Assembly (NCBI RefSeq): GCF_014075995.1
Contig: NZ_CP055153.1
Coordinates: 2,604,001-2,668,000 of the forward strand
Direction of reading: 5' to 3'
DNA length: 64,000 nucleotides
Source: Adhaeribacter radiodurans
GTDB taxonomy: Bacteria; Bacteroidota; Bacteroidia; Cytophagales; Hymenobacteraceae
The first letter of the stretch is position 1. Every line of letters starts with the position of its first letter. The notes beneath the pieces are model-generated. The model worked only from the letters and a program-made list of their open reading frames with translations. It searched no databases and was not told the origin of the DNA. The translations under genes were made by a program, and so were the position numbers. Of this stretch, positions 2,751 through 12,227 are shown piece by piece.

Positions 2751-2772
2751 AAGAGCGTTAATTAACGCTCTT
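2751..2772 (-). terminator. Terminator closing the chemosensory cluster, overlapping the cheC-like stop codon
   Basis: A perfect palindrome (AAGAGCGTTAA / TTAACGCTCTT) contains the TAA stop of the CheC-like gene. On the minus strand it is followed by TTTTTTG, as expected for Rho-independent termination. Confidence 0.85.
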
Positions 2773-3433
2773 CGTAAAATTTGTAGGAACGAATTATTTC
2801 GAGAATCTTATTAAAAGTTATAGTATCGAAGAAAAGGAAAAGCGGGAGTTCCACCATGCCCTCGTGATCGGTGAAATGCGTTAGCACCGTAAAAATAATT
2901 GGCTGAAAAAGAGGGTTTACGTCTAAGATATGATTTAGTGAATGCGTAATGCCATTTTGAGGATAAATGGGCGGCGAACCATAAATATCTGCTTTTAAAA
3001 TATTAGCCAATTGCGTAACAAAAGCACCCGTTATAATATTACTAATCTCCAGGAGCAGAGATTCCTGCATGGCGGTAAGTGGCTTCTGGTAAGGTCGTTT
3101 TAAATTAAGGCATACCAGCGAAAGCATTTCTACGTGGTTGCCCGAAAAAAGCATTAAAGTAGTGCCGTTAAAATCCCCTTTTATATCCGACTGAATAATT
3201 TCATGGGTTCCTTCGTAACCTGAAATAAATTTAGATAATGCATTAGCTTCAATTAATTCTAAGTCAGGTACTTTCATTAGTACCTTGTCTTTAGCAATCA
3301 CCGCAAAAGAATCGGCAGCCCGGGCCAAGCCAATATTTAGAATTTCTTTGATAATATCTTTTTCTAAATCTGTTACTTGTAATTCCATGAATAAATCTTT
3401 TTTATTTGGCTGCATATAACTATATAGAGCCAT
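2762..3433 (-). CDS. CheC-like chemotaxis phosphatase (CheC/CheX/FliY family)
   Basis: A 223-residue soluble protein with the two pseudo-symmetric helices of CheC phosphatases. The first carries D-x3-E-x2-N (DIIKEILN) followed by a distal proline, the second S-x3-E-x2-N (SLLLEISN) followed by PP. In this family the Glu and Asn dephosphorylate CheY-P, so the likely substrate is the CheY encoded 1.8 kb upstream in the same cluster. It starts 3 bp after the cheA stop and is surely cotranscribed. The ATG at 3433 is used here; a second ATG at 3388 (MELQVTD) would remove 15 residues and better match the usual family start. No CheD partner is present. Confidence 0.82.
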   Translation of the reverse strand: MALYSYMQPNKKDLFMELQVTDLEKDIIKEILNIGLARAADSFAVIAKDKVLMKVPDLELIEANALSKFISGYEGTHEIIQSDIKGDFNGTTLMLFSGNHVEMLSLVCLNLKRPYQKPLTAMQESLLLEISNIITGAFVTQLANILKADIYGSPPIYPQNGITHSLNHILDVNPLFQPIIFTVLTHFTDHEGMVELPLFLFFDTITFNKILEIIRSYKFYEER

Positions 3434-3436
3434 TTG

Positions 3437-5071
3437 CTACTTTTTAGAAATAAAATAACGGGTGATCGCCGGCACATCTAATACCAGACATACTTTACCG
3501 GTACCCAATAAGGTTACTCCCCCGTAAATTTCAATGTTATCCAGCGGCTTATTTAATGGTTTAATAACAATGTCCTGTTGCCTATATAGTTTATCCACTA
3601 TCAAACCTAGCCGACGATTATTGTAAACAATAATAATTATATTTTGCACGGTACCATTTAATCGGTCCTTGCTGCCCAAATTCATGTGAGCATCATTGCT
3701 GTTTAAAAATTCTCTTAAATAAATAACCGGGATCGTTTCATTTTTAATGTTCGCCACCAGCATATTACCAACTTCGTGCAATTCATCTTTATCAATAGAA
3801 ACTACCGAATCAGTGTGCATGAGCAAAATAGCATAATAGCCTTCTTCCACTTCAAAAAGTAAGGCTCCTTTTACCGCAATAGAAGTAGGTAAATGCAGCG
3901 TAAAAGTAGTGCCTTTATCTTTTTCGGAAGTAACCTGAATGCGTCCGCCAATAGAATCAATCGCATTTTTTACTACGTCCAAACCAACTCCCCGGCCCGA
4001 AAATTCGGTTACCTCTTTCGCCATAGAAAAGCCGGGCTCAAATAAATACGATAAAACCTCGTTTTCGTGTAAATCGTCCACGAGATCGGCGGTTAAAGAT
4101 TTACGGGCTACAATGGCTTTTTTAACAGCGGGTATATCAATTCCTCTGCCGTCATCACTTAATTTAATAAGAACATTATCCCGGTCGCTTTGAGCAGATA
4201 AAGTAAGAGTACCTTGGCGAGGCTTGTTCTTTTTTAAACGGTCAGCGGTTTTTTCTACACCATGCGAAATGGCATTCCGAACCAGATGTAGTAACGAATC
4301 CGTTATTATTTGTAAAATGTTCCGGTCAATCTGAATATCCTGGCCAATGATTTCCAACTGAATTTCTTTTTGCTCGGCTTGGGCAATGTCCCGGACAATG
4401 CGCGGAAATTTATTAAATAAGGTTCCTACGTTTACCAGTCGGGCGTCCATTACGCTGAACTGAATTTCTTCAGTAATCCGGTATAAATGAGAACTTACCG
4501 CTTTTAAATCTTCGCTGTTTAAGTCTTTGCTTAAAGAAATAATCCGGTCCCGGTCAATTATTAATTCACCCACTAAATTTAGTAAATGATCGAGCTTTTT
4601 GATCTGGATATAAATCAGATCGGAGAGCGTTAAATTCCGGGCATTTAATTTCTGAACCTTCGTTGCTTCGGATAAATCTTTAGTTGCCCCGTTTTCGGCC
4701 AGAATATCCAGATTGTGAAATAAACTTTCGTCCAGAATTTTATAGTTAGGATCGTCTACGTTGGAAAGTAATTCCCCCAATAAATCAATCCCGTCGAATA
4801 AAACAGTAGCTACTTCGTTACTAAAAGTTAATTCGTGTTTGCGAACCAGTTCAAAAGCGGTTTCGAGTTTATGCGCTAAATCAGAAATTGGGAGGTAACC
4901 TATGGCTTTAGCATTAGCTTTTAAGTTATGCAGCAACCGAAATATTTCTGCCAAAATCTGGTCATCGTCCGGAGTTTTTTCCAGGTTACTAATGTGCCGG
5001 TTTAGGGCATCAAAGTATTCCAGAGCTTCGGCAATAAATATTTCTTTATATTCTTGTTCTCTCGATTTCAT
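3437..5071 (-). CDS. cheA: CheA-type chemotaxis histidine kinase, short form without P2
   Basis: A 544-residue protein. Domains in order: an N-terminal Hpt with phospho-acceptor His48 in LLHNLKANA; a P3 dimerisation segment (KLDHLLNLVGELII) near residues 155-215; a HATPase domain (HLVRNAISHGVE, DDGRGID, GRGVGLDVV) near 250-395; and a C-terminal CheW-like domain that docks to receptor arrays. Usual CheA proteins are about 650 residues or more; the CheY/CheB-binding P2 region is absent or reduced to a linker (about 115-150). The kinase should phosphorylate the adjacent CheY. It lies between cheY and the cheC-like gene, preceded by a 202-bp gap with a possible separate promoter. Confidence 0.92.
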   Translation of the reverse strand: MKSREQEYKEIFIAEALEYFDALNRHISNLEKTPDDDQILAEIFRLLHNLKANAKAIGYLPISDLAHKLETAFELVRKHELTFSNEVATVLFDGIDLLGELLSNVDDPNYKILDESLFHNLDILAENGATKDLSEATKVQKLNARNLTLSDLIYIQIKKLDHLLNLVGELIIDRDRIISLSKDLNSEDLKAVSSHLYRITEEIQFSVMDARLVNVGTLFNKFPRIVRDIAQAEQKEIQLEIIGQDIQIDRNILQIITDSLLHLVRNAISHGVEKTADRLKKNKPRQGTLTLSAQSDRDNVLIKLSDDGRGIDIPAVKKAIVARKSLTADLVDDLHENEVLSYLFEPGFSMAKEVTEFSGRGVGLDVVKNAIDSIGGRIQVTSEKDKGTTFTLHLPTSIAVKGALLFEVEEGYYAILLMHTDSVVSIDKDELHEVGNMLVANIKNETIPVIYLREFLNSNDAHMNLGSKDRLNGTVQNIIIIVYNNRRLGLIVDKLYRQQDIVIKPLNKPLDNIEIYGGVTLLGTGKVCLVLDVPAITRYFISKK

Positions 5072-5111
5072 GCGTTGTAGTAAAACAACTTAGCTGGCTG
5101 TTCCTGTTACT

Positions 5112-5119
5112 CAAAGCTA
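5112..5119 (-). promoter_or_regulatory. Possible internal -7 element upstream of cheA
   Basis: The minus strand reads TAGCTTTG, a perfect match to the Bacteroidota -7 consensus TAnnTTTG, about 40 bp upstream of the cheA ATG. No matching -33 TTG is visible, so this is only a candidate second promoter for cheA and the cheC-like gene. Confidence 0.35.
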
Positions 5120-5273
5120 GTCTTGATTTCTCCGGGAATAATAGCTTCAGGATAAACGGGTTATTAAACTTATAATAAGGCGTTAAGTAGCTAAAGTAAC
5201 CAATTAAAAATAGGGGTTTAATTAATTGTCTAGCAGCTATTAATTACTAAATTATGAAATAATGTAGTGGCCG

Positions 5274-5642
5274 TTATTCTTTTAAAGCATTTCCTACGGT
5301 TTCCAGAACTTTCTCTTCTGAAAAAGGTTTTACTATGTAGGAATAAGCGCCATTTTCAACGGCTTCGTTTACTATAACTTCCTGACCAACGGCACTTACA
5401 ATAATTACTTTCATGTCGGGTTGCTCTTTCTTAATTCCTTTTAATACATCTAAGCCGGTGTTATCAGGTAAGATTACATCTAAAGTAATTAAATCGGGGT
5501 TAGTTTCCCGGGCCAGCTGCAATGCTGTTTGTCCATTAGGCGCTTCCCCTACTACTTCATAGCCTGCATCCGTAAGCATGTTTTTAAGCATGGTACGCAT
5601 GTAAAAAGAGTCGTCAACAATTAATATTCTTTTTTTCATCAT
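5274..5642 (-). CDS. cheY: CheY-like single-domain response regulator
   Basis: A 122-residue receiver domain with all key residues: acidic pair Asp10-Asp11, phospho-acceptor Asp55, Ser83 and Lys105 (VKPF). There is no output domain, so it acts by protein interaction, as CheY does. It sits between cheW (60 bp upstream) and cheA (202 bp downstream), making it the likely phospho-target of this CheA. What it acts on is not clear, because no flagellar or gliding motor genes occur in the window. Confidence 0.9.
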   Translation of the reverse strand: MMKKRILIVDDSFYMRTMLKNMLTDAGYEVVGEAPNGQTALQLARETNPDLITLDVILPDNTGLDVLKGIKKEQPDMKVIIVSAVGQEVIVNEAVENGAYSYIVKPFSEEKVLETVGNALKE

Positions 5643-5702
5643 TCATTTAAGTTTTTCTGAAATTTCTTCAGCATGTAAGATGTACGAAAAAGCAAAGCTA
5701 AA

Positions 5703-6218
5703 TTAAGCTTTTAGCTGCTCTGCTTCATCGAAAGTAAGTATTTTGTGAATATCTAAAACAATAATCAAACGTTCTCCTAATTTCCCAATCCCCTCAATAT
5801 AGTTGTCATTAATTTGTAAATCCTGAATAAAAGAAGGCGTTTTTTCGATCCTGGATACAGGAATAGATAAAGATTGAGGTACTTCGCGGACCAATAACCC
5901 TATAGTATAATCTTTTGCTTCTAATACCAGAGTATACGATTTTGAATAGGATTTTGCCTCACCGTTAACGAGTGCGGACGAGGAAATGTGAAACCTTTCT
6001 TCTAAATCTAATAAAGCAATAATATCGCCCCGAATATTAGCTACCCCTTTAATAAAAACGGGTATTTTGGGCATTCGGGCAATTTCGGGGGTGAAAGTAA
6101 CTTCTTTTACTTGTTCAATCCGGATTCCGTACTCTTCGGAGCCCAGCTTAAACACAATTAAATGCACGCTGGGCTCCCGATTTACTTCTTTTTTCTCGCT
6201 AATACTCTCGGTATTCAT
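5703..6218 (-). CDS. cheW: CheW chemotaxis coupling protein
   Basis: A 171-residue protein with a single CheW domain from about residue 18 to 165. Typical motifs are EYGIRIEQVKEV, MPKIPVFIKGVANIRGD and a C-terminal strand LIIVLDIHKIL. CheW links chemoreceptor tips to the CheA regulatory domain in signalling arrays. It begins 2 bp after the end of the giant receptor gene, so the two are translationally coupled and likely dedicated partners. There is no signal peptide and no fusion. Confidence 0.93.
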   Translation of the reverse strand: MNTESISEKKEVNREPSVHLIVFKLGSEEYGIRIEQVKEVTFTPEIARMPKIPVFIKGVANIRGDIIALLDLEERFHISSSALVNGEAKSYSKSYTLVLEAKDYTIGLLVREVPQSLSIPVSRIEKTPSFIQDLQINDNYIEGIGKLGERLIIVLDIHKILTFDEAEQLKA

Positions 6219-6220
6219 AC

Positions 6221-9200
6221 TTACGATTTGGACTTATTAGGGGCCTTCCTAACTGGGGCTTTCTTCGGGTTTTCTCCGCCGTTTAAAGAAGTGCGATTAG
6301 CTTCTAATTTAGGATTGATGGAATTAGGTAAAGCAGAATTGGTTCGTTGCCCACCCTTGGCCGAATGACTAGAAGTACCATTAGTACTGCTGGTTAACGC
6401 TCGCCGGGCAGAAATTGCTTTAACTGGACTTTCCGGAATATGCCGGATAGATCGGCTTTGTTGGTAAAAACGATTATCTTCTAAAAGCTTAAAGGCGGAA
6501 ATACCTAATTGAAGATCTTCGGCAATTTCATTTAACTGCTGACTTGAAGCCGTCATTTCCTGCATTGAGCTTGATAATTGTTTGGCTGTACCGGCTACTT
6601 GTTGAGTACCAGATGCGGTTTGCTCGGCAATCGCTACTACTTCTTCCACGTATTTTACTACGTCGGCAATGGAAGATTTCTGCACTTCGGTAGCGGTTAA
6701 AATATCCTGTGAAGTACGTAAGGTTTCCCCGCTGGAAGTAGCAATGTTTTTAAAGGCTCCGGAAGCTTCAAAAGTTGCATTTTTACCTTTTAATACCCGC
6801 CCTTCCATGGTAGAAATAGCCGCTGCTGCCGAAGATGTATCCTTCTTAACATCGTTTACTAATGTTTCAATCTCACTCGCGGATTTACGGGAGCCTTCGG
6901 CTAATTTCCGGATTTCTTCGGCTACTACGGCAAAACCACGACCTGCTTCGCCAGCCCGAGCCGCTTCAATAGCCGCATTTAGAGCTAATAAGTTAGTTTG
7001 GGAAGCAATATCCGTAATTACGCCTAAGGATTTAGAAATTTCCTGCGACCGAGTACTTAATACTTCAATAGTTTTAGCAGTTAAGGCCGCGGCGGAAGAT
7101 ATTTCTTCCATGTTTTTCACTACTTCGGCAACGGTTTTTAAACCAAGCTGCGAGGTTTCTTCCCCTAAAATGGCGGCCCGGTTCACTATATCGGCTTTAT
7201 TAGCGGTAGCTTTCGTCGCTTTCATGATTTCCTCGATCAATTTGAAGGCTTGATCGGTTTTTAAAGCTTGGTTTTGCGCTCCTTCGGCCATTTGCTGCAT
7301 GGCTAAAGCTACATCTACCGTAACGCGGCTCATGTCTAAACCTTTATTTTCCATTTCTTCAGAAGAAGAACCCACTACCTGAGAAGACTCATTAATCTCT
7401 CCGAGTAAAGAATTTAAATTTTCTACCGCAAGATTTAAAGCATTAGACATGGAAAGCAAATCTCCGGTAGTATGAATTTCTACCTTCTGGGTTAAATCAC
7501 CTTCTGAGATAGCCCGTACTACCCGCGATACTTCCAATACCGGAGTTACAATGGATTCCAGTAAATCATTTAAAGTATCTACTAATTCTTTCCAAGAACC
7601 ACCTACTCCGTGTACCGTAGCCCTTTCGGTTAATTTACCTTCCACTCCAGCTACCCGGGCAACCCGGCTTACCTCACCCGCTAATCGGTTCAGGTCATCC
7701 ACCATGCGGTTAATAGTTTCTGCCAGGTCTGCAACTTCTCCCTTTGCTTCTAAAATTAATTTTTGAGTTAGGTCTCCTTTCGAAACGGACGTTACAATTT
7801 TAACAATGCCCCGCACCTGGGTGGTTAGGTTACTGGCCATGGTGTTTACATTATCGGTTAAGTCTTTCCAGACCCCACCAACATTGGGTACAGCCGCCTG
7901 CCCGCCTAATTTACCTTCAGTACCTACTTCCAAGGCCACCCGGGTTACTTCGCCAGCAAAGATGTTCAGGGAGTCCACCATCTGATTCAGAATATTTTTG
8001 AGTTCCAGGATTTCACCTTTCACGTTCACCGTCATTTTCTGACTTAAGTCGCCTTTTGCTACGGCTGTGGCCACATTAGCAATATCGCGTACTTGCAGGG
8101 TCAGGTTGCTGGCCATGGTGTTTACATTATCGGTGAGCTCTTTCCAGGTTCCCTGTACTTTTGGTACATTGGCTTGACCACCCAGTTTTCCTTCGGTACC
8201 TACTTCCCGGGCTACCCGGGTTACTTCATCGGCAAATATGTTGAGGGAATCCACCATCTGGTTGATGTTATCTTTTAACTGCAAAAGCTCGCCTCTAACA
8301 TCTACCGTAATTTTCTGGGTTAAGTCGCCTTTTGCTACCGCGGTGGCTACGTTGGCAATATCGCGTACCTGGCTGGTTAAATTGGACCCCATGGAGTTTA
8401 CATTATCGGTCAAGGCTTTCCAAACACCCGCTACATTCGGTACGTTGGCTTGTCCGCCTAATTTACCTTCGGTACCTACTTCTAAAGCCACTCGGGTAAC
8501 CTCGCCCGCAAAGATGTTCAAAGAATCCACCATTTGGTTGATGTTCTCTTTTAATTGCAAGAGCTCGCCTTTTACATCTACCGTGATCTTCTGACTTAAA
8601 TTACCCCGGGCAACAGATGTAGCCACATTGGCAATGTCGCGCATCTGGCTGGTTAAGTTACTGGACATTAAGTTCACATTATCCGTAAGCGCTTTCCAAA
8701 CACCCGCTACATTCGGCACTGTTGCCTGTCCACCGAGTTTTCCTTCGGTACCTACTTCCCGGGCTACCCGGGTTACTTCATCCCCGAAGATGTTCAGAGA
8801 ATCCACCATTTGGTTGATGTTCTCTTTTAATTCTAACAGCTCTCCTTTTACATTAACCGTAATTTTCTGGGTTAAATCGCCTTTCGCTACGGCTGTTGCC
8901 ACATTAGCAATATCCCGCACCTGACTCGTTAAGTTACTAGCCATAGAGTTTACGTTATCGGTCAAAGCTTTCCAGGTACCGCCAACATTGGGAACAGTAG
9001 CTTGCCCGCCTAATTTTCCTTCCGTACCTACTTCCAAGGCCACCCGAGTTACTTCTCCAGCGAAGATGTTCAAAGAATCCACCATTTGGTTGATGTTCTC
9101 TTTCAGTTGCAATAGCTCGCCTTTTACATCTACCGTAATTTTCTGGGTTAAATCGCCTTTCGCTACGGCGGTGGCAACGTTAGCAATGTCGCGTACCTGG

Positions 9201-11158
9201 CTCGTTAAATTACTTGCCATGGAGTTTACGTTATCGGTCAAAGCTTTCCAAACACCGGCTACATTCGGCACGTTGGCTTGTCCGCCTAATTTCCCTTCGG
9301 TACCTACTTCCAAGGCCACGCGGGTAACTTCCCCGGCAAAAATGTTCAGGGAGTCCACCATCTGGTTCAGAATATTTTTGAGCTCCAGGATTTCACCTTT
9401 AACGTTCACCGTCATTTTCTGGCTTAAGTCTCCCTTTGCTACGGCTGTTGCTACATTAGCAATATCGCGTACCTGACTCGTTAAGTTACTCGCCATGGAG
9501 TTTACGTTATCGGTCAAAGCTTTCCAGGTACCGCCAACATTGGGAACAGTAGCTTGTCCGCCTAATTTTCCTTCGGTACCTACTTCCAAGGCCACCCGGG
9601 TTACTTCCCCGGCAAAAATGTTCAAAGAGTCCACCATTTGGTTGATATTCTCTTTCAGTTGCAAGAGTTCGCCTCTAACATCTACCGTAATCTTCTGACT
9701 TAAATCACCCCGAGCCACCGAAGTAGCTACGTTCGCAATGTCACGCACTTGACTGGTCAGGTTACTAGCCATTAAGTTTACGTTGTCAGTCAATTCTTTC
9801 CAGATACCCGCTACTCTGGGTACAATGGCTTGGCCGCCGAGTTTTCCTTCGGTACCTACTTCCCGGGCTACCCGGGTAACTTCATCCCCGAAGATGTTCA
9901 GGGAATCCACCATCTGGTTGATGTTCTCTTTTAATTCTAACAGCTCCCCTTTTACATTAACCGTAATTTTCTGGGTTAAATCGCCTTTCGCTACGGCGGT
10001 GGCAACGTTAGCAATATCCCGTACCTGGCTCGTTAAGTTACTAGCCATGGTATTTACGTTATCGGTTAACTCTTTCCAGGTACCGCCAACATTGGGTACT
10101 CTGGCTTGCCCACCCAATTTTCCTTCTGTACCTACTTCACGGGCTACGCGGGTTACTTCATCCCCGAAGATGTTTAAAGAATCCACCATCTGGTTGATGT
10201 TTTCTTTCAACTGCAACAATTCACCTTTTACATCTACCGTAATTTTCTGGGTTAAATCACCCTTGGCTACGGCAGTGGCTACGTTGGCAATATCCCGCAC
10301 CTGGCTGGTGAGGTTACTTGCCATAGTATTTACGTTATCCGTTAAATCTTTCCAAACACCAGCCACATTTGGTACCGAAGCCTGCCCGCCTAATTTTCCT
10401 TCCGAACCTACTTCAAGAGCCACCCGGGTAACTTCCCCGGCAAAAAGATTAAGGTTATCAATGGTGCGGTTAATGGTTTCGGCCATTACTTTGAAATCGC
10501 CGGAAACCGGAATCTGAAACGTTTCGTCTAGATTTCCTTTCGAAATATTTTTTAAAACTTTGCCTACTTCTAAAACCGGAACAGCAATGGAATCGACCAG
10601 GCCATTAATATTATTAATCATGTCTTTCCAGAATCCGGAAGCACTTTCGGCCGAAGCCCGCGCTTTTAAGTTTCCTTCTACTCCGGCTACTTTGGAAATG
10701 CGCGATACCTCGCCGCCTACACCTCCAATCATTTCCACCATAGAATTATACGCTTCGGCTATTTCCGCAAAAATATCATCGTCTTGCTTGGTAAGCCGAA
10801 CAGACACATCGCCTTTTTTAAAAGCATCTAAAGCATACAAAACCCGGTTAAGTTGTTCATTCAGGTAATTTTGTTCACGGGTATCAGAACCATCGCCGGC
10901 CATAGAAGATTTGCGGGCAGAATTACCGCCAGCAGAAATTCGAATTGCTCTTATGTCTCTCCCGTTTTTAGGTAAGGTAGAAGCCTCCGAAACAGAAATA
11001 GGTTCTTGAACCACTTCTTTAATTGCAGCTGGATTAGGAGCTTGTTTTGCTTCCGGTTTAGCAGCAGCATTTGCTGGAGACGCTTCAGGCACCTTGCTAG
11101 TTTCCGGTGGAGCAATCAACTTATCTTTATTCAACTTCATGTTTTTTCCTAAAGCCAT
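6221..11158 (-). CDS. Giant soluble poly-HAMP methyl-accepting chemotaxis receptor
   Basis: A 1645-residue protein without any membrane segment or signal peptide. Residues 1-95 are Ala/Pro-rich and contain a basic patch ([19 protein letters not shown]). A divergent HAMP unit follows at about 96-240, then ten nearly identical 92-residue HAMP-pair units (about 240-1160; motif [19 protein letters not shown] ... [20 protein letters not shown]), one diverged unit, and an MCP signalling hairpin at about 1260-1540 with the conserved tip [17 protein letters not shown] basic tail ends the protein. The repeats resemble the poly-HAMP arrays of fungal Nik1-type kinases. A cytoplasmic receptor is inferred; the ligand is unknown. 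It is followed 2 bp later by cheW and preceded by a ParA gene. Confidence 0.93.
7680..10440 (-). repeat. Ten tandem 276-bp repeats coding for HAMP-pair units
   Basis: Landmarks recur exactly every 276 bp (for example GTCGCCTTTTGCTAC at 8048 and 8324), equal to 92 codons. The unit count comes from the ten copies of EGKLGGQA in the encoded protein. Units differ by few substitutions and keep the reading frame throughout. The repetition also opens long but meaningless frames on the opposite strand. Confidence 0.9.
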
Positions 11159-11477
11159 ACGATATTTAAATAAAAGTACTGATTCTGATAATAATAGCTG
11201 CCAAAGTAAATTCTAATAAGATATTACCTTATTTATGGACATTTAAAGATATAAAATATTTAGATTATAACCGGTAATTGTAAGTCACGGCGAAGCGAGT
11301 AATACCATTTTATATACAGGAAAACTTTGTTGATAGAACAGGTTATAATCGAAAACAATCCTGTAAAAATAAACAAAACCCCACAATTTACCACGCCATT
11401 AGTAAAGTATAAGGGCGAGCCAGTAATAAGTAAAAGCAAAATTTAGGTATTTATTGGTTGGGGTTTAATTACCTATA
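11159..11477. other. Non-coding gap between the ParA and receptor genes
   Basis: This 319-bp AT-rich stretch has no plausible gene on either strand, no convincing hairpin and no clean TAnnTTTG promoter. It may hold the receptor promoter, since the gap is long for an operon-internal one. Confidence 0.5.
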
Positions 11478-12227
11478 TTATATTTCCAGGAACTCTTTCG
11501 CTACAGCTAAATAATCTTGCGCCCCGTTAGAATTAGGGTCATAATCCAGTATGCTTTGTCCAAAAGAAGGGGCCTCGGCGAGTTTTACGTTTAAACGGAC
11601 TTTGGAACGGAAAATCTTTTCGTCTACACTTTCTTGTAAAAATGCTTCTACTTCTGAGCTAAGCTTCCGGCGTTTATCATACATAACTATCACAATACCT
11701 TTTATTTTTAACTTAGTATTTAAAGTAGATTTAACTTGTTTAACAGTGGCTAAAATCTGATTTAAACCTTGTAAGGTTAGTACTTCCATTTGCAAGGGAA
11801 TAAGTACCTGTTGCGAAGCCGTTAAGGCGTTTACGGTTAAGACGGAAAGCGAAGGCGGGCAATCAATCAGGATAAAATCAAAAATTTTTACATTGGCGAG
11901 AATACTTTTTAAAAAACTTTCTCTTTTTTCCTGAGTAACTAACGATATTTCAATGTCAACTAATTCGTGCGAGCCGGGAGCAACCGAGAAATTGTCGTCT
12001 TTATCAACTATAATTTCTTTAAGTTTTTTGTTACCCGTAAAAACATCTGCCAAAGTAAATTCAGGCTCGGTAATCCCTAAGGAATACGAAAGATTACTTT
12101 GCGGATCTAAATCAATAAGTAATACTTTTTTACCCAGTTTGCTTAAAGCCCTGCCCAGGTTAATAGTAGTAGTGGTTTTGCCGGTTCCACCTTTCTGATT
12201 AATTATTGATACAGTAGTAGTTGCCAT
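11478..12227 (-). CDS. ParA/Soj-family ATPase beside the chemosensory genes
   Basis: A 249-residue deviant-Walker ATPase: KGGTGKTTTTINLG at residues 11-24 with the signature lysine, switch I LIDLDPQSNLS, and Walker B ILIDCPPSL. ParA proteins form ATP-dependent dimers that coat the nucleoid and move a cargo. No parB or parS-like gene lies next to it, and the downstream gene is a soluble chemoreceptor. This mirrors PpfA with TlpT in Rhodobacter and ParC with ParP in Vibrio, in which ParA homologues position chemosensory arrays. That role is inferred from context; chromosome partition (Soj) is the alternative. Confidence 0.88.
   Translation of the reverse strand: MATTTVSIINQKGGTGKTTTTINLGRALSKLGKKVLLIDLDPQSNLSYSLGITEPEFTLADVFTGNKKLKEIIVDKDDNFSVAPGSHELVDIEISLVTQEKRESFLKSILANVKIFDFILIDCPPSLSVLTVNALTASQQVLIPLQMEVLTLQGLNQILATVKQVKSTLNTKLKIKGIVIVMYDKRRKLSSEVEAFLQESVDEKIFRSKVRLNVKLAEAPSFGQSILDYDPNSNGAQDYLAVAKEFLEI

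Follow-up and report, generated by a model that had tools for sequence, protein, structure and literature searches.

A 64,000-nucleotide stretch of Adhaeribacter radiodurans DNA (contig NZ_CP055153.1, positions 2,604,001 to 2,668,000; here called the window) carries a gene for a ParA-type ATPase followed by a giant soluble chemoreceptor and a set of che genes, and the question raised by this locus is whether the ATPase positions the chemosensory array and, if so, which part of the receptor it contacts. We consider it probable, at roughly 0.7, that a dedicated ParA positions a single cytoplasmic array, composed of the soluble poly-HAMP receptor, CheW and CheA, on the nucleoid by way of the first 15 residues of the receptor, a reading built on sequence comparisons. 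The initial annotation had described six minus-strand genes, in the order ParA, soluble receptor of 1645 amino acids (aa), CheW, CheY, CheA and CheC-like protein, and all six were located as claimed, with Pfam support. It had also proposed a cytoplasmic array with a ParA of its own, contacted at residues 68-86 of the receptor; the soluble receptor cluster with a dedicated ParA stands, whereas the contact probably lies elsewhere. The cluster spans 2762-12227, with 319 bases between ParA and the receptor and 2 bases between the receptor and CheW. Four of its features carry the argument:

11478..12227, minus strand: Che-type ParA ATPase, 249 aa (Pfam AAA_31, 2.5e-55; deviant Walker A KGGTGKT at residue 12)
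6221..11158, minus strand: soluble poly-HAMP chemoreceptor, 1645 aa (Pfam HAMP_2, HAMP and MCPsignal; hydropathy)
11114..11158, minus strand: N-terminal tag, residues 1-15, proposed ParA-binding or ParA-stimulating peptide (conservation and co-occurrence with the Che-type ParA)
10856..11113, minus strand: variable tether, residues 16-101, from the tag to the first conserved helix (length comparison); contains the 68-86 patch

The receptor N-terminus and its co-occurrence with ParA

Residues 1-15 were nearly identical across ParA-linked receptors despite differing sequence downstream. For the 12 ParA-positive receptors of the family (Hymenobacteraceae), the mean pairwise identity was 0.925 over residues 1-15 versus 0.19 over residues 16-45 (ungapped). 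In other families of the order (Cytophagales) the tag starts as MALGDNIKKDRLL, MALGNNIKKDQLI, MALGDNIKREKLI and others, and it precedes soluble receptors in several of the families. Synonymous codons differ among the tags, so that the conservation is at the protein level.

We searched the 291 genomes of the order with a degenerate DNA pattern for M-A-L-G-[KNDE]-N-hydrophobic-K (the strict tag) and obtained 35 matches, spread over 33 genomes. By our own reading, 29 of these matches lie beside a ParA like that of the window (25 of the 30 loci read, plus G051, G020, the second match of G250 and G083:C32; G, L and C numbers are our handles for genomes, loci and contigs). One more is the first CheW of G250, located in the same cluster as its tagged second CheW; three are on receptors without a ParA nearby (G068, G124 and G148), and the other two, in G186 (8 codons) and in G083:C8, appear fortuitous. 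In the genome of the window the pattern matches a single time, at the start of the receptor. The possibility that the tag is a chance string was set aside, given that a reversed-pattern control yielded a single match in the 291 genomes and that, in a phylum sample of 395 genomes, the only hit apart from that of the window was a frame of 17 codons.

The conservation and the co-occurrence with ParA point to residues 1-15, and not to residues 68-86, as the ParA-stimulating region. Residues 68-86 are indeed basic (net charge +3), and they lie inside a tether of variable length: the stretch up to the first conserved helix measures 92-129 aa in the 12 ParA-positive receptors and 45-75 aa in 32 ParA-negative receptors, with no overlap. 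An ARKS/ARRS stretch related to this patch was found in the genus of the window and in genus g4, and was not evident in the Pontibacter-like receptors; a loose pattern matched it in 4 of 11 ParA-positive receptors. Because the tether around it varies in length from one relative to the next, the patch is unlikely to be the main ParA contact, and residues 1-15 are probably the better candidate for a ParA-binding or ParA-stimulating peptide.

CheA (PF02895) was detected in 99 of the 291 genomes of the order, and in 45 of 45 sampled genomes of the family with one CheA each. Besides that of the window, 98 genomes were CheA-positive; we read 80 stretches from 79 of them, one or two per genome even where more CheA genes were present. 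A ParA was called Che-type when it reached at least 315 bits with a profile of 18 sequences (the next match scored 281.5 bits), and such a ParA was present in 24 of 80 genomes (the 79 and that of the window). An array protein carried the tag in 23 of these 24 genomes, 19 by the strict pattern and four read by eye (MALGDNLRK in G018, MALGDNLNK in G198, and MASGKEIKRDRLIP in G041 and G070), and the strict tag occurred in one (G148) of the 56 genomes without a Che-type ParA. For the strict tag (19/24 versus 1/56), Fisher p is 7e-13, a value uncorrected for kinship and obtained from genome counts that are not independent. In four genomes (G018, G041, G070 and G068) the tag or its variant is on a receptor and the ParA of this clade is unlinked, with no che gene seen within the 20 kb read around that ParA; in the first three, the tagged receptors were seen before their ParA was located, and in G068 the ParA came first. 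A CheA tree of 79 rows, obtained with a quick method, implies nine changes of the ParA state; averaged over 200 random pairings, the tag follows ParA in 3.6 of four contrasts.

Ten of the 45 family genomes (genera g1, g3 and g4) have a Che-type ParA, directly upstream of the receptor in all ten. In the other 35 (g2 and g5) the best ParA match reached only about 239-249 bits, and therefore the Che-type ParA is gone from these genomes and has not moved; we infer that g3 is Pontibacter-like and g2 Hymenobacter-like. The tag was lost in 32 of the 32 readable receptors of this ParA-negative lineage, a set from which three of the 35 receptors, with their starts cut off, were left out. Over the first 15 residues their identity was 0.369; the leucines and the final Leu-Ile are gone, Met-Ala is retained, and Lys5 is present in 29 of 32. 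The strict pattern was absent from all 35 genomes. The starts of these receptors were assigned by rule, namely at the last Met-Ala that precedes the first conserved helix by over 30 residues, and at least that of L074 is probably cut short.

The ParA clade and the recurrence of the gene order

The initial annotation had named a chromosomal Soj identity of the window ParA as a finding that would speak against it. The genome has three ParA matches at E ≤ 1e-5 and three ParA/partner pairs. One ParA (C2:1914550-1915290) adjoins the sole ParB_N place, about 0.7 Mb from the cluster, and the N-terminus of this chromosomal ParB is MSENKNQVKKKGGLGRGLNALI; the third ParA is encoded on contig C1 (136 kb), next to a small protein starting with MAKKNFSGGLGSLLQ (L004:2279-2584). 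In a careful ParA tree of 117 rows, a group of 37 rows that includes the window ParA was split from the other 80 with an ultrafast bootstrap of 100 and an SH-aLRT (approximate likelihood ratio test) value of 99, and the other two ParAs of the genome, including its own Soj (L157), fell among the 80. Since another ParA adjoins the only ParB and the cluster ParA sits in a separate clade, the window ParA is not Soj; the ParA-ParB pair occupies a locus of its own (parS sites were not searched for). The two systems share the ParA fold and a partner N-terminal motif that is hydrophobic and basic; unlike chromosomal ParABS, the window ParA has no adjoining ParB.

Within the 37-row group, 31 members have the tag within 1.2 kb downstream, five have no tag nearby (L151-L155) and L244 has a near-tag. 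The tree left out L241, whose sequence does not contain the P-loop pattern by which the rows were trimmed, and L098, a duplicate of L162; PpfA and ParC are outside its 117 rows. The closest named locus found is that of Adhaeribacter aquaticus, whose ParA is 77% identical to that of the window, and by sequence the ParA fold matches 8ray (3.1e-51) and 1wcv (1.1e-50). The L244 ParA, from an Elusimicrobiota metagenome-assembled genome (MAG; L244:5771-6520), is 55% identical to the window ParA; it is followed by a 111-aa protein starting with MAMGKNVNLKDRII, and no che gene was seen on its 9.4-kb contig. Three loci from MAGs labeled Flavobacteriia, Chryseobacterium and Bacteroides (L245, L246 and L281) also fall in the 37-row group. 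The organism labels of these four MAG loci may reflect mis-binning.

The order ParA-receptor-CheW-CheY-CheA-CheC, with or without CheB, recurs within the family and beyond it, in further families of the order, which rules out an adjacency unique to the window genome and indicates that the arrangement is not due to chance. Receptor homologues that were never next to a ParA gene would have counted against the initial annotation, and what we found is that the receptor is often directly downstream of a Che-type ParA. Of the ParA-positive genomes, 14 belong to other families. In eight of them ParA lies immediately upstream of a receptor, in one (G250) it adjoins a CheW, and in the four genomes with unlinked ParA mentioned above the stretch read around it showed no che genes; G079 is the remaining one. 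In the phylum sample, with at most six candidates per genome scored, no match outside the order exceeded 295 bits. Two of the f43 ParA loci from this sample (L231 and L232) showed neither a tag nor any match to CheA, CheW or a receptor that we considered real.

Proposed mechanism and alternatives

The tag resembles the N-terminus with which ParB binds ParA. According to the available excerpts of the literature, on which this and the following citations draw, the ParB motif for ParA is N-terminal, disordered, aliphatic and basic, and a short peptide is enough to stimulate ParA (PMC12462528); partners of ParA/MinD ATPases are said generally to act through a positively charged disordered N-terminus (PMC10241942). 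The tag and ParB share Leu-Gly-basic and a later Leu-Ile, and MSENKNQVKKKGGLGRGLNALI and MAKKNFSGGLGSLLQ appear to be N-termini of the same kind. Among 72 untagged ParA loci with a downstream frame, LG[KR]G[LMI] was found within the first 60 residues in 23, and a looser pattern in 34.

In the mechanism that we propose, ParA-ATP dimers would bind DNA nonspecifically, as expected from their family, and receptor residues 1-15, held on a tether of roughly 85 residues, would bind the ParA dimer and trigger ATP hydrolysis in the manner of the ParB N-terminus. The arrays could then track ParA-ATP across the nucleoid, so that each daughter cell would receive one. The poly-HAMP rod would pass on, and perhaps sense, a cytosolic condition to CheA; phosphorylated CheY (CheY-P) would be the output, possibly to gliding driven by the type IX secretion system (T9SS), and the CheC-like protein would take the phosphate off CheY-P. 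In the excerpts of a 2025 work on the direction of T9SS rotation, CheY is mentioned solely for the flagellar motor (PMC12239597).

Several observations weigh against the positioning of the array by ParA through the tag. In the assembly of G148 (570 contigs, 89% complete) a receptor carries the tag and no Che-type ParA was found, G079 has a Che-type ParA and no tagged partner was found in its 380 contigs, and G274 retains only MALGKNSQKETLA (MALGKN) without a Che-type ParA. Just four independent contrasts are available on well-supported branches of the CheA tree, a few of the 200 pairings contain one opposite contrast, and the sign test gives p 0.125-0.625, with 0.05 out of reach. The tag is similar, not identical, to the ParB motif, and genomes of group g28, which are not CheA-positive, carry it on a PAS-like protein. 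Finally, the 35 family genomes without a Che-type ParA retain the poly-HAMP receptor, and hence ParA is not indispensable for it.

The alternative that survives best, which we nevertheless regard as unlikely, is that the receptor attaches to DNA directly through basic stretches (residues 61-95 and the C-terminal tail), with a minor or different role for ParA. Its model is Myxococcus FrzCD, which like the window receptor is a cytoplasmic HAMP receptor of a gliding bacterium; it is nucleoid-associated, has two HAMP domains, and binds DNA by a basic N-terminal tail (PMC5716589, PMC12077210), and as far as these excerpts go the model includes no dedicated ParA. The window receptor has a charge of +3 at residues 61-95 and an 84-aa tail with a charge of +13. 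A loose TRKRG-like pattern for a basic patch occurs in 31 of 32 ParA-negative versus 4 of 11 ParA-positive receptors, and the C-terminal tail is 82-152 aa long in 35 ParA-negative versus 42-86 aa in 12 ParA-positive receptors, with a median of 24 versus 12 Lys/Arg, although the longer Ala/Pro/Arg tails may be due in part to genome composition. Direct binding would leave unexplained the ParA-only conservation of residues 1-15, the adjacency and the co-loss. It may fit the ParA-less lineage better than the window receptor, and both modes could operate together. A change from ParA-driven to direct nucleoid attachment in the ParA-less lineage is possible; this is one lineage, and composition could contribute. 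The ParA-less loci L038-L080 have long C-termini rich in Ala, Pro, Lys and Arg, preceded in many of those printed by an acidic Glu-Pro run, and these recall basic DNA-binding tails.

It seems improbable that ParA recruits the array, through the tag, to a cell pole, as in Vibrio. There, ParC, a ParA-like ATPase, recruits arrays via the N-terminal domain of ParP, a protein with a CheW-like domain at its C-terminus (PMC5706961), so that in both cases the N-terminal part of a partner would link array and ATPase. A closer analogue is the tagged CheW of G250, which resembles ParP; the window cluster differs in that the receptor itself is tagged, and the CheW-family search of the genome yielded no third CheW-like protein fit for ParP. 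Against a polar array stand the solubility of the receptor and the absence of FliG from the genome by a search that matches 4 of 14 control genomes (polar landmark proteins were not sought); without FliG, there is no flagellar pole for the array to serve.

That the adjacency is merely inherited order, with an N-terminus kept for translation start or another partner, is very hard to credit: many ParA-positive genomes are related and the independent contrasts are few, but the codons of the tag vary, it occurs on unrelated proteins and where ParA is unlinked, and it decays in the lineage that lost ParA.

Other carriers of the tag, known systems and the rest of the cluster

The tag is not confined to poly-HAMP receptors. 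G250 has receptors of the membrane type and two CheW proteins that start with MALGENIKSAKK and MALGKNLKKSKLIP, the second directly downstream of ParA; the CheW of the window starts with MNTESISEKKEVNREPS and is untagged. The three tagged receptors of other kinds that we put to Pfam (L095, L229 and L281) are PAS receptors. Because PAS receptors and CheW carry the same tag, the poly-HAMP array is not what marks the partner of ParA. In L245 (6402-6989) and L246 (10746-11294) a tagged protein of 182-195 aa directly follows ParA and precedes a receiver protein, all within a che cluster of another kind; the one tested, from L245, gave a weak STAS-like match under the Pfam cut-off. Outside the CheA-positive set, G025, G056, G083 and G111 have ParA and then a tagged protein of about 215 aa:

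L222:9298-9945, tagged protein of about 215 aa beside ParA
L223:9884-10531, tagged protein of about 215 aa beside ParA
L225:10003-10650, tagged protein of about 215 aa beside ParA
L226:3506-4156, tagged protein of about 215 aa beside ParA

The member of this group that was tested (L222) has a PAS-like domain, and these proteins may be a ParA cargo outside chemotaxis. As the tag is present on a PAS-like protein in the g28 genomes, it is not an array signal as such, and its occurrence on CheW, STAS-like and PAS-like proteins is what would be expected of an address peptide for one ParA clade. We lean, if only slightly, towards a portable ParA address code in Bacteroidota, in which an N-terminal peptide of 13-15 residues, MALG-x-N-[LI]-K...L-I, would assign cargo to one ParA clade; the decay of the tag, the shortening of the tether and the basic gains after the loss of ParA would then mark a possible switch to direct nucleoid attachment.

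ParA-positioned cytoplasmic arrays are already known from PpfA/TlpT of Rhodobacter sphaeroides, where, as here, a ParA homologue lies beside a soluble receptor in a che operon; no ParB lies beside the window ParA. The N-terminus of TlpT is thought to stimulate PpfA (PMC3964821, PMC6829392), and the proposed tag would be its counterpart. By 2010, ppfA homologues had been found in che operons of 77 of 206 species (PMC2829493). The two systems differ in that TlpT has 567 aa (PMC3964821) and the window receptor 1645 aa with a 92-aa HAMP array, and in that the window cluster is the sole chemosensory system of a genome without FliG. The new parts are the transferable tag and the Nik1-like array of 92-residue HAMP repeats: in our searches of the open-licence literature we found neither this Bacteroidota ParA clade, nor a transferable tag, nor a chemoreceptor with a Nik1-like array this large, nor any paper on cheA of Hymenobacteraceae. 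Where several ParA-type ATPases coexist in one cell, what pairs each of them with its own cargo is a current question (PMC10241942, PMC12462528), and this system supplies a short candidate peptide, a sister lineage without both partners, and the same peptide on other proteins. The three ParA/partner pairs in one genome suit cross-talk tests, and non-flagellated Bacteroidota gain a testable cytoplasmic array.

The remaining features of the cluster are:

7406..10846, minus strand: poly-HAMP rod, period 92 aa, approximate bounds (marker spacing; Pfam HAMP and HAMP_2; PDB 9trk match)
6635..7165, minus strand: MCP (methyl-accepting chemotaxis protein) signaling domain, residues 1332-1508 (Pfam PF00015, 9.8e-39)
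5703..6218, minus strand: CheW, 171 aa (Pfam, 1.4e-28)
5274..5642, minus strand: CheY (Pfam Response_reg, 2.5e-30)
3437..5071, minus strand: CheA kinase (Pfam Hpt, H-kinase_dim, HATPase_c and CheW; HxLK at residue 48)
2762..3433, minus strand: CheC-like protein (Pfam CheC, 3.8e-13)

The receptor has no membrane segment by a simple and crude test (top 19-residue Kyte-Doolittle mean, 1.35). Pfam matched HAMP_2 over 12 stretches (7.4e-120) and the MCPsignal domain. The rod marker is present in 11 copies separated by ten intervals of exactly 92 residues; relatives whose receptors are not cut off have 5 to 14 copies, and a period of 92 was found in 44 of 44 receptor loci read, with a single 89 besides. 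The HAMP repeats match PDB 9trk and 9trj (histidine kinase fused to Gcn4p) with E 3.8e-78 and 1.1e-36, the former, which is the nearest solved chain, over a 261-aa stretch. Concatenated HAMP pairs of 92 residues each are described in fungal group III kinases (PMC3848655); since the window receptor shares these repeats but ends in MCPsignal, its sensory or relay part is Nik1-like and its output is that of a chemoreceptor, acting through CheA and not through a hybrid histidine kinase/receiver. Nik1-type kinases work in osmotic signaling (PMC3848655), and hence a cytosolic physical condition is a reasonable guess, and no more, for the cue sensed by the window receptor. The rod differs in length by whole 92-residue units, which makes a tomographic ruler experiment possible; in V. 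cholerae, cytoplasmic arrays measure about 35 nm (PMC3964821). In another family of the order, the poly-HAMP receptor of G130 (L161:297-4427) is split into successive frames of 1059 and 289 aa, and may be broken or mis-assembled.

In the whole genome (6.94 Mb, two contigs) the CheW family matched two places, the CheW and the CheA of the cluster, and thus this is the only recognizable chemosensory kinase system of the genome. GldL (gliding/T9SS) is present, by a search that matches 0 of 14 controls. No stand-alone CheR was found, CheR being confined to two open frames (1383 and 1463 aa) in which CheB is encoded as well; there is one separate CheB of 352 aa, by inspection without a receiver. A receiver-CheB is part of the clusters of Adhaeribacter aquaticus and Pontibacter ruber and is missing from that of the window. 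The CheC-like protein has two [DS]xxxExxN motifs (residues 26 and 125) and is probably a CheY-P phosphatase, judging from its sequence. The CheA of G087 (L043:3404-5058) lies in two frames of 440 and 112 aa, which could reflect a frameshift.

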